NCBI GenBank assembly: GCA_008373165.1
Contig: RQOU01000118.1
Coordinates: 1-56,305, forward strand
Source: SAR202 cluster bacterium
Lineage (GTDB): Bacteria; Chloroflexota; Dehalococcoidia; Lucifugimonadales; Lucifugimonadaceae
Reading direction: 5' to 3'
DNA: 56,305 nt
Made by a program: the position numbers and the translations under genes
Notes under the pieces: generated by a model
Seen by the model: the letters and a program-made list of their open reading frames with translations, nothing else
Database searches by the model: none
Told to the model about the DNA's origin: nothing
Shown: positions 39,479 through 43,279 of the stretch, piece by piece
Position numbering within the stretch: the first letter of the stretch is position 1
How the letters are laid out: every line of letters begins with the position of its first letter

Positions 39479-40438
39479 TTATTGGGTAAACAGTTCCCCA
39501 ACCGAACGACCTTCGTGAATCCGTTTAATCGCTTCCCCAAGAAGTGGAGCAACAGATAACACTTTCATCTTAAAGTTTACTTTGTCAGCAGACAAAGGAA
39601 CTGTATCGGTTATTACAACTTCCTTGATATGTGAAACTTCAGCGAGTCTAGTTGAAGTATCTCCAGACAACACTCCATGAGTGGCCACGGCATAGATATC
39701 TGTACTGCCCCGTTTGGTAATAGCATCGGCGGCAGAAATCATTGTGCCCCCTGTACCAATCTCATCATCAAACAGGATAACCGGATGACCATCAACATCA
39801 CCTATAACATTCAAGCTTTCAACCCGGTCGTCATTGCCAAGTCTTCTTTTCTCAACTATCGCCAGAGGAGCATTAATGGCATCAGCAAAGTCACGAGCTT
39901 TCTTAGAAATCCCGATGTCCGTCGCAACCACCACCGGATCATCTAAGTCCCTTTCAACAAAATATTCGACAAGTTTCGGCATAGCCGTGAGTTCATCGAC
40001 CGGTACCTGAAAAAATCCTTGAACTTGACCAGCGTGCAGATCCACCATCACTACCCGCTCTGCACCTGCTGTTTCAAGTAAATCTGCGACTAAACGACCT
40101 GTAATCGGAACTCGAGGCTGATCTTTTTTATCCGTTCGGGCATAACTGTAAAAAGGAACTACCGCTGTTATTCGTCCAGCTGAAGCACGCTTGGCAGCAT
40201 CAATCATTATCAACAGTTCCATGATGTGATCATTGACCGGTTCTATGGTCGATTGCAGTATAAAAACATCTTTTTGTCGAACGTTTTCTAATATCCGTAC
40301 AAAGGTGTTGTCGTTACTAAACTTAAAAACCTCTACCTGGCCCACACTCTGATTCAGGTAAGCACAAATATCCTCCACCAATTGGGGGTGGGAGTTTCCA
40401 GCAAAAATGACAGGGTTTCCATTAGTACCAAGCATCAT
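39479..40438 (-). CDS. prs: Ribose-phosphate pyrophosphokinase
   Basis: A 319-residue class I PRPP synthetase of standard length. It has the ATP-binding FSNDNTFVRILENVRQKDVF segment, VVPFYSYARTDKKDQPRVPIT, and the family signature VDLHAGQVQGFFQVPVDELTA. The PRPP-binding loop is VILFDDEIGTGGTM. It makes PRPP for nucleotide, histidine and tryptophan synthesis. Its ATG overlaps the stop of the upstream enoyl-CoA hydratase gene as ATGA; a second ATG follows immediately. Confidence 0.96.
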   Translation of the reverse strand: MMLGTNGNPVIFAGNSHPQLVEDICAYLNQSVGQVEVFKFSNDNTFVRILENVRQKDVFILQSTIEPVNDHIMELLIMIDAAKRASAGRITAVVPFYSYARTDKKDQPRVPITGRLVADLLETAGAERVVMVDLHAGQVQGFFQVPVDELTAMPKLVEYFVERDLDDPVVVATDIGISKKARDFADAINAPLAIVEKRRLGNDDRVESLNVIGDVDGHPVILFDDEIGTGGTMISAADAITKRGSTDIYAVATHGVLSGDTSTRLAEVSHIKEVVITDTVPLSADKVNFKMKVLSVAPLLGEAIKRIHEGRSVGELFTQ

Positions 40439-41274
40439 ATCCCCTTGAACTTTGGCCGGCGTTTTTGCCTTAAGGCTTCCATGCCTTCAACATGGTCATT
40501 AGAGGATAACGTTATTGACTCCGCTACGGCAGCCATTTCAAGGGAAGTTTTGAGATCCATTGACAACCCACGGCGCATCATGCTCTTCGCCAGCCTAATA
40601 GCTATTGGTGGCCCGCACGCAATACTTCGAGCCATATCTTGAGCTTTGCCTATTAGCTCCTCGCCAGATACAACATCGTTCAAAAAACCTAGATTCTCAG
40701 CCTCAGTCACATCCATGAAACGTCCTGTGTACATCAGTTCGGCGGCCTTTGCATGACCGAACAGCCTAGGGTAAAGCCAAGTCCCCCCGTACCCAGGAAA
40801 TAAACCAACATGGATATAAGCAGCCATGAAACGAGCATTATCTGAAGCAATACGAATATCGCAAGCACACGCAAGATCAAATCCGGCACCGACAGCATCG
40901 CCATTTACTGCTGCAATAACAGGTTTTTCCATTTCGTGAATACCCAATATTACCTCTTGAGCAAGATGAAAACCTCGTCTTAGGCCCTCCGCTCCTTCAG
41001 GTCCAGGCTTATGCGGCCCATCACTTTTACCACCTGACATCTCGTCGGTATCGGCTCCTGAACAGAAAGCACGACCTGCTCCGGTGATAATAATTGCACG
41101 AATTGAATCATCTGATGCTACCGACTTTAAGGAATCGACAAGCGACTTAAGAAGCTCACTTCCGAGTGAGTTCAGTCGATCAGGGCGATTAAGTGTGAGG
41201 GTAGCGTACCCTTGTTCACGATTAACATCTGTAATCAAACCGTCATTATTCGTCACCTGAGCATATTCTGACAT
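40435..41274 (-). CDS. Enoyl-CoA hydratase/isomerase family protein
   Basis: A 279-residue crotonase-fold protein. The CoA-binding and oxyanion regions are RAFCSGADTDEMSGG and AVNGDAVGAGFDLACACDIRIAS. The second catalytic region reads LFPGYGGTWLYPRLFG, where an enoyl-CoA hydratase usually has a Glu followed by GG; the Gly-Tyr-Gly-Gly here leaves the exact reaction open. An inserted loop (SGGKSDGPHKPGPEGAEGLRR) follows the first motif. The reaction could be hydration, isomerisation or another crotonase chemistry. It overlaps prs by 4 bp. The selenoprotein candidate lies 183 bp upstream on the same strand. Confidence 0.88.
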   Translation of the reverse strand: MSEYAQVTNNDGLITDVNREQGYATLTLNRPDRLNSLGSELLKSLVDSLKSVASDDSIRAIIITGAGRAFCSGADTDEMSGGKSDGPHKPGPEGAEGLRRGFHLAQEVILGIHEMEKPVIAAVNGDAVGAGFDLACACDIRIASDNARFMAAYIHVGLFPGYGGTWLYPRLFGHAKAAELMYTGRFMDVTEAENLGFLNDVVSGEELIGKAQDMARSIACGPPIAIRLAKSMMRRGLSMDLKTSLEMAAVAESITLSSNDHVEGMEALRQKRRPKFKGI

Positions 41275-41457: not shown

Positions 41458-41805
41458 TCAGGACAAATCGTCGTAAGCATGCTTTTTAAAGCCGAAGATA
41501 ATTTGGGAACCATCTGAGAGAATTGGCCTTCTTATAAGACGAGGCTCTTTCGTCATCAAGTCTATTAACTCTTCATCCGACGCTTTACCGCGAAGATTTC
41601 TATAGGGTTTCGAGCTCGGGCTTCGCCAAGCAAACATCTCATCTACGGAACAAAGTTCGCTAATATCTTTAATCTCTGCATAGGACAGCGGATCTTTGAA
41701 AAAATCACGTAACGCATATTTAAGGTCTAAATCGTCAAGAGCCCGACGGGCCTTCTGGCATGTACTTCAACGGGACCAACAGTAAAACTTCAATTCATCA
41801 GACAA
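41458..41805 (-). CDS. ArsC/Spx-family selenoprotein candidate (in-frame TGA = Sec13)
   Basis: A 115-residue ORF running through one in-frame TGA at 41769-41767. The product reads MSDELKFYCWSR-U-STCQKARRALDD, then KDPLSYAEIKDISELC, and ends LIRRPILSDGSQIIFGFKKH. This is the ArsC/Spx thioredoxin fold, with the TGA exactly at the first residue of CxxC. Apart from that codon the frame is open and family-like end to end. ArsC-like selenoproteins with UxxC are known from marine metagenomes. A SECIS-like hairpin follows. The TTG start at 41805 has GGGGG 6 bp upstream; an in-frame ATG at 41850 is the alternative. A nonsense mutation or sequencing error is the competing reading. Arsenate reduction itself is not established. 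Confidence 0.8.
41737..41754 (-). promoter_or_regulatory. Candidate bacterial SECIS stem-loop
   Basis: On the minus strand, AAGGCCC pairs with GGGC-T-CTT around a GTC apical loop, giving seven base pairs and one bulged U. The stem starts 12 nt and the loop 19 nt after the TGA. A bacterial SECIS usually has its apical loop about 16-37 nt downstream, with a conserved G then U in the loop. The E. coli fdhF element likewise has a GU loop and a bulged U, though on the other arm. A chance hairpin from GC-rich Arg codons cannot be excluded. Confidence 0.6.
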
Positions 41806-41896: not shown

Positions 41897-43279
41897 TTGG
41901 GTAACCAAGCATACAAAAATATAAGAAAACATATTCAAATTTGGTCACATCGGTCGCCATTTAAACGCGTCATAAGTGATCTTCGTTTAGGAACTCGCAG
42001 TTTTACTAATTTGAGTGTTTACAGCTTTGGGCTTTCTGGACTCTGGACGGCTGTTGGTTCAGTCATACTACCTTTCAAAATATTAGAAATTTTGGAAATT
42101 GGCACGATCGAAATTTTGGGGCAACCGTTGGACAAAAATGGCGCTCTCGGCGTGATGTCGTTAATCGGCTTACCTATGGGGGCAATGATCCAGTTAATCT
42201 TCGGATCAATAAGTGACCGCAGCAATAGGCCAGGAAAACGCTTGTCGTATCTATTATTTGGCGGACTTGGGTTGGGCATATCCACCATACTTCTTGGATT
42301 CGCTACAACTTTTGTCTCGCTTTTCCTCATGTATATGGCGATACAAATTTTCGGAAACGCTGGACAGGGGCCTGCCAATGCCTTAATCGTGGATCACGTA
42401 CCCACGCGTCGAAGGGGTGAGGCATCGGGTGTTTTAAATTTGTGGCGGCTCATGGGAGCCGGAATTGTCACGGTGATCGTCCTGCAATTTATGGCGAACT
42501 ATGAATCAGGATCTGCTCCGCAATGGCTGTGGTACTCAATCACATTTATGGTTGTGGTTTTGATTGTAAGTACGTTGTGGACCACCCTATCTATACGACC
42601 AAGTGCAAAGCTCAAGAACACTAGCCTGAATGAAAATCCAACACTCGAAAATACATCACTAGATAACGATAAGCCCGAACAAAGGTTCAAGCTGTCAAAA
42701 AGTTACATCATTTTTTTAGTAGCGCTGGCGTTCTCCATCGCAGCATTATCATCTTTGCAAATTTATGCCCTGTTTTTCCTTCAGGATGTAGTCGGTTTGG
42801 CGAATCCCGCCGACGGAGCAGATTTACTAGTCATAGTAGTCATAGCGACGGCTGTGTTTACCGTTATACCAGCAGGTAAATTGGCCGACAGATTCGGGAG
42901 AGGAACACTATTTTTTATTGCAGGACTGAGTGGTGTGGCTGGATCCACACTATTACTATTTGTAAATTCAATCGTACCTGTACTTGGTATCGGCGCTATT
43001 TTGGGATTCAGCGCTGGCTTATTTTTAACACTAACGTGGACCGTAGCTAACGACCTCGTAAGTCGGATAGCGGCAGGAAAAGAACTCGGTTACACAAGTA
43101 TTGCAACGCTAGCTGGATCTGCTGCAGCAAGATTTGCAGGGATAGGAATAGACCAACTCAATAACCTGTCGGAAAATCTCGGATACAAGGCGATGTTAAT
43201 AGCAGTAGCAATCGCGTTCGTCATTGCCGCGGTATTACTTGCCAGAGTAGCGAAATATTTACCGCAAAATGACACCTGA
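41897..43279 (+). CDS. MFS transporter, about 12 TM
   Basis: A 460-residue membrane protein with two six-helix halves, joined by a hydrophilic loop rich in Asn and Thr (LNENPTLENTSLDNDKPEQ). Motif A-like loops are FGSISDRSNRPGKRLSY in the first half and GKLADRFGRGTLFF in the second. The pattern fits sugar- or solute-type MFS proteins, but no substrate can be named. The start is TTG and has no good ribosome site, so the N-terminus is uncertain; a short hairpin (CTTGG/CCAAG) overlaps it. It is divergent from the selenoprotein candidate, with 91 bp between them. Confidence 0.85.
   Translation: MGNQAYKNIRKHIQIWSHRSPFKRVISDLRLGTRSFTNLSVYSFGLSGLWTAVGSVILPFKILEILEIGTIEILGQPLDKNGALGVMSLIGLPMGAMIQLIFGSISDRSNRPGKRLSYLLFGGLGLGISTILLGFATTFVSLFLMYMAIQIFGNAGQGPANALIVDHVPTRRRGEASGVLNLWRLMGAGIVTVIVLQFMANYESGSAPQWLWYSITFMVVVLIVSTLWTTLSIRPSAKLKNTSLNENPTLENTSLDNDKPEQRFKLSKSYIIFLVALAFSIAALSSLQIYALFFLQDVVGLANPADGADLLVIVVIATAVFTVIPAGKLADRFGRGTLFFIAGLSGVAGSTLLLFVNSIVPVLGIGAILGFSAGLFLTLTWTVANDLVSRIAAGKELGYTSIATLAGSAAARFAGIGIDQLNNLSENLGYKAMLIAVAIAFVIAAVLLARVAKYLPQNDT

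Follow-up and report, generated by a model that had tools for sequence, protein, structure and literature searches.

An ArsC/Spx-like reading frame with an in-frame TGA

The DNA analysed (the window) is a stretch of 56,305 nucleotides from a SAR202 cluster bacterium, and translation of positions 41458–41805 of its minus strand, with TGA read as selenocysteine (Sec, U), gives a protein of 115 residues, LSDELKFYCWSRUSTCQKARRAL...RRPILSDG...GF...DDLS-stop, which contains a single in-frame TGA and the motif U13-S-T-C16. The features of the locus are as follows.

41458–41805, minus strand: ArsC/Spx-like gene, a probable selenoprotein gene (TTG start at 41805–41803; 115 codons; TGA stop at 41460–41458)
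41767–41769, minus strand: UGA codon 13, predicted to encode Sec, the first residue of UxxC (U in 77 rows and C in 14 rows of the aligned column)
41758–41760, minus strand: TGC codon of Cys16, the putative resolving Cys of UxxC (Cys in 85 of 86 homologues)
41737–41754, minus strand: bSECIS-like hairpin AAGGCCC-GUC-GGGC-U-CUU (apical loop at 41747–41745; 19 nt from UGA to loop)
41524–41529, minus strand: near-invariant Arg93-Pro94 codons (RRPI motif of the ArsC/Spx family), identified by conservation among homologues
41897–43279, plus strand: MFS transporter gene, neighbour conserved by synteny
40435–41274, minus strand: enoyl-CoA hydratase gene echA, neighbour conserved by synteny

The original prediction had proposed an ArsC/Spx-type protein of this length read through one TGA on the minus strand, and both the translation and a match to the Pfam ArsC family (PF03960; 52.7 bits against a gathering cut-off of 24) bear this out; the sequence relatives in the Protein Data Bank were Spx and ArsC-like proteins. 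As had also been described, the TGA takes the place of the leading Cys codon of the CxxC motif, the second Cys is kept, and the RRPILSDG and GF segments are intact. The TTG start at 41805 aligns with the GTG or ATG starts of congeners, and the terminator of the gene is itself TGA, so that the same codon would denote Sec at position 13 and stop at position 116. The region had been thought empty to standard ORF calling, which holds for the full-length gene but not for its C-terminal half, where the ORF finder leaves a 59-residue fragment beginning with ATG (41458–41637). Apart from the trivial upstream extension of one ORF, this was the sole UxxC or CxxU read-through frame in the window that is clear of larger ORFs.

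Conservation of the TGA and selection on the protein

Homologues were found in 62 of the 393 genomes of a class sample, 55 of the 62 with one TGA, and in 45 of the 76 genomes of a family sample. In the alignment of the fetched sequences, the codon-13 column held TGA in 77 rows (20 from the genus of the window and 57 others) and TGC or TGT in 14, which is the alternation with Cys codons in relatives that the original prediction had suggested looking for; among the rows aligned across this column TGA was exchanged only with Cys codons and never with Trp. Three rows that our script left unplaced were read by eye and have the same U (G089, G140 and G112, the last of these with its gene split by a frameshift). 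Because the TGA occupies one column both within the genus and in the 57 other rows, and because no other such frame exists in the window, its placement in the arsC-like gene is far beyond chance. The close relatives have this one TGA and no further scattered stops. In addition, a close named relative, a SAR202 cluster MAG (L059), encodes a protein 87% identical with that of the window and has the same neighbouring genes, which supports the earlier placement of the locus in SAR202.

Some individual relatives deserve mention. A record titled uncultured Alphaproteobacteria (L058; CAJWOI010000181.1) carries an 88–97% identical protein at a locus syntenic with that of the window, and is probably misnamed or misbinned. 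One TGA form (L053, G381) has a TAG as well, in place of the Trp codon that precedes Sec, representing either error or decay. Another TGA-form relative (L040, G308) has UxxS, with Ser in place of the resolving Cys, which suggests that a monothiol-type mechanism may be possible there.

Comparison of the window gene with that of L058 gave a dN of 0.043 and a dS of 0.462 (dN/dS 0.094), and the dN/dS value downstream of the TGA alone was 0.081, indicating purifying selection on the protein past this codon. The positions conserved among the homologues were U/C13, C16, R33-D34, F36, S62, P88, R93-P94 and G105. A single in-frame stop in a draft MAG might also be explained by a pseudogene or a sequencing error, i.e. 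by an ordinary Cys-type arsC with a chance TGA. We regard this as scarcely conceivable, given that the same TGA occurs in 77 rows drawn from separately assembled genomes, including the single-contig congener G190, that a dN/dS of ~0.09 extends beyond the TGA, and that the genome contains the full sel machinery described below. The TGA column conserved across the class and the dN/dS value together rule out the chance or pseudogene reading, in agreement with the original argument that a chance loss of function would rarely strike this codon.

Selenocysteine machinery in the source genome and the class

The MAG from which the window derives (1.94 Mb; 85% complete) contains selB above the curated cut-off, selA above the cut-off and truncated by a contig end, a tRNA-Sec gene (selC) with a UCA anticodon, and selD above the cut-off, the last with its own in-frame TGA in the conserved loop ACAGUAGK (L015, G000 C94:39766–40695). 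The Sec-decoding system that a selenoprotein in this lineage had been said to imply was thus found complete, all four components being present in the same genome. In addition, G190 has the TGA form together with selA, selB and tRNA-Sec, and, as it consists of a single contig, mis-binning is unlikely to explain the link between gene and machinery.

The source genome also contains two Prx-like UxxC genes with one in-frame TGA each, which have the motifs FWUAAC (L126, G000 C73:29003–29374) and LFURQC (L127, G000 C127:4876–5244) and are likely, from their sequences, to encode further selenoproteins. A profile search of this genome with PF02627 (AhpD/CMD) gave no match.

Within the class sample, selA was present in 53 of the 55 TGA-form genomes. 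The two others were considered as possible counter-examples and rejected, since searches for selB and selC found parts of the machinery in both (selB and tRNA-Sec in G023, and tRNA-Sec in G096). In two genomes with the Cys form (G031 and G157), selA, selB and tRNA-Sec were all searched for and none was found. Of the 393 genomes of the class sample, 254 had a selA that exceeded the curated cut-off; SAR202 and much of its class would appear to decode UGA as selenocysteine.

As UGA must be translated in the arsC-like gene, one might also suppose that it is reassigned throughout the genome, or read through non-specifically (e.g. as Trp), without selenocysteine being involved. This has next to no probability in our view: the TGA column alternates with Cys codons and never with Trp, TGA serves as a normal stop, including that of the arsC-like gene itself, and both tRNA-Sec and SelB are present.

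A SECIS-like hairpin downstream of the UGA

A published bSECIS model specifies a loop of 3–9 nt with G within its first two positions, an upper stem of 4–16 bp, a spacing of 16–37 nt, and an MFE at or below −7.5 (PMC13188914). The hairpin that follows the UGA in the window gene has a 3 nt GUC loop, a 7-bp stem with one bulged U, a spacing of 19 nt and a local 21-nt MFE of −7.8 kcal/mol, and so falls within these constraints. In a 48-nt fold of the window gene the probability of the hairpin core was only ~0.38 against a competing structure, and its energy z-score relative to codon shuffles was only approx. −1; single-sequence fold z-scores were likewise weak to modest, with means of −1.4 and −1.7. 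As the individual z-scores are weak, the case for the hairpin rests on conservation of the pairs and on codon constraint and not on energy.

In the genus of the window, the element GCCC-GUC-GGGC and its outer pairs were 99% paired, compared with 72% in synonymous-codon shuffles (maximum 79%). The other TGA forms have an 8-bp stem, for example GCGAGGGA-GGC-UCUCUCGC, with a loop 4 nt further from the UGA, and here pairing was 91% compared with 54% in shuffles (maximum 59%); at several pairs both sides had changed. The Cys forms lack the hairpin, and their pairing equals that of synonymous-codon shuffles. Synonymous diversity was 0.16 in the five hairpin codons compared with 0.63 in the other four- and six-fold codons, and none of 100,000 random draws gave a value as low. 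These data indicate that a hairpin fitting the published model follows the TGA and is conserved in the TGA forms to a degree that exceeds codon constraint; a bSECISearch run on this region had been among the checks suggested with the original prediction.

The position of the loop itself varies, being 4 nt nearer the UGA in the genus of the window (and apparently also in genus g227) than elsewhere in the class, e.g. in L037; we take this displacement to be a register shift within one orthologous family.

Fold and probable function

The AlphaFold model of the window protein (pLDDT 89) shows the whole of the ArsC/Spx/YffB fold and places U13 immediately ahead of helix 1, and its top structural matches were YffB (1rw1; Z 16.9, rmsd 2.2, 112 aligned) and Spx (1z3e; Z 16.6, rmsd 1.8, 113 aligned). 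On the combined evidence, we consider it almost certain that this is a selenoprotein gene in which UGA-13 is recoded under the direction of SelB and the hairpin, and that its product is an ArsC/Spx/YffB-type redoxin of the thioredoxin fold with Sec13 as the probable nucleophile. Sequence evidence supports the recoding and its machinery, the hairpin, purifying selection and the class of fold; the redox chemistry of Sec13 and Cys16 is inferred. UGA codon 13 would be recoded by SelB bound to Sec-tRNA-Sec, directed by the hairpin just 3′ of the UGA, and the product would fold as a redoxin of this type, Sec13 lying at the N-terminal end of helix 1. Sec13 would then most likely attack a disulfide or another oxidized substrate, Cys16 would resolve the intermediate via a selenenylsulfide, and cellular thiols would reduce the latter.

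The name ArsC denotes a fold and a family and not arsenate reduction. A genuine arsenate reductase for arsenic resistance would agree with membership of the Pfam ArsC family and with the conservation of Sec/Cys13 and Arg93, which we take to be the counterparts of residues in the catalytic core of ArsC. However, the arsC equivalog model TIGR00014 gave only 33.8 bits against a cut-off of 106.05, and no ars genes were seen among the conserved neighbours of the locus (MFS, echA, prs and secA), and this role is improbable. The fold matches, the conserved positions, the neighbourhood free of ars genes and the low TIGR00014 score lead us to infer a general thiol/selenol oxidoreductase role and not that of an arsenic-resistance enzyme.

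The best-scoring NCBIfam model was TIGR01617 (Spx/MgsR), with 72.4 bits for the window protein, just below the cut-off of 75.05, and 86.7 for the Cys orthologue of genus g7, which passes. Together with the presence of Spx among the top structural matches, this might point to a selenoprotein that serves not as an enzyme but as a redox switch binding RNA polymerase in the manner of Spx. We regard such a role as unlikely, since the window protein lies just under the TIGR01617 cut-off and far under the Spx models, and YffB is an equally good structural match; a transcriptional switch of the Spx kind with the Sec–Cys pair as its sensor is, in our judgement, very unlikely. If true, ocean bacteria of the SAR202 lineage would have a selenium-based redox sensor that acts on RNA polymerase.

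Sec and Cys forms of the gene in a conserved gene order

The gene order MFS–arsC–echA–prs–secA, or a subset of it, is kept throughout the family. Genus g7 has the gene at the syntenic locus in a form that carries Cys instead of Sec and lacks the hairpin, and this genus keeps selA, with selB and tRNA-Sec present in both genomes tested. The protein tree has five Sec/Cys label changes and places the g7 Cys clade among TGA forms. As the deep forks of this tree are poorly resolved, a change from Sec to Cys at the g7 locus is offered as the most parsimonious reading. The same syntenic locus thus holds either a Sec form or a Cys form, the latter without the SECIS-like hairpin, and this locus, together with the 4-nt hairpin shift within the family, should be useful for the study of Sec retention or loss.

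Comparison with known selenoproteins

Selenoproteins are mentioned in papers on other Dehalococcoidia, and our literature search found no paper joining SAR202 with a selenoprotein, the word selenocysteine occurring once each in two papers matched for SAR202. UxxC ArsC-domain selenoproteins have been listed from Global Ocean Sampling (GOS) data (Zhang and Gladyshev 2008, PMC2398784), as the original prediction had stated. Since such forms are already reported from ocean metagenomes, the window protein is not a new kind of selenoprotein. A close parallel is the GOS ‘Arsenate reductase 2’ (cd03032, PMC2398784), which likewise has an ArsC/Spx-like domain, UxxC and a marine source, but is known from metagenomic reads and was likened to the window protein by description only; the window protein perhaps belongs to this group.

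The NCBIfam model NF041106 (ArsC_rel_Se_1; UxxC), listed in a 2026 review (PMC13188914), also describes an ArsC-family UxxC (seleno)protein, but the window protein scored 30 bits against its cut-off of 85, and four relatives from the class, three with Sec and one with Cys, scored 21.6–36.8. As it fails this model, we assign the window protein to a different subfamily. The arsC-like gene is cut short by standard ORF calling and lies outside the range of the NCBIfam seleno-ArsC model. The ArsC-like selenoproteins of Desulfotalea and Desulfuromonas (PMC1794560), compared by description, are genome-encoded like that of the window but come from Deltaproteobacteria. YffB (PA3664, 1rw1) and Bacillus subtilis Spx (1z3e) share the fold over the whole length at 21–26% identity, but have Cys and not Sec. 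With the locus described here, the marine UxxC ArsC-like selenoproteins can be tied to a particular organism, locus and lineage.
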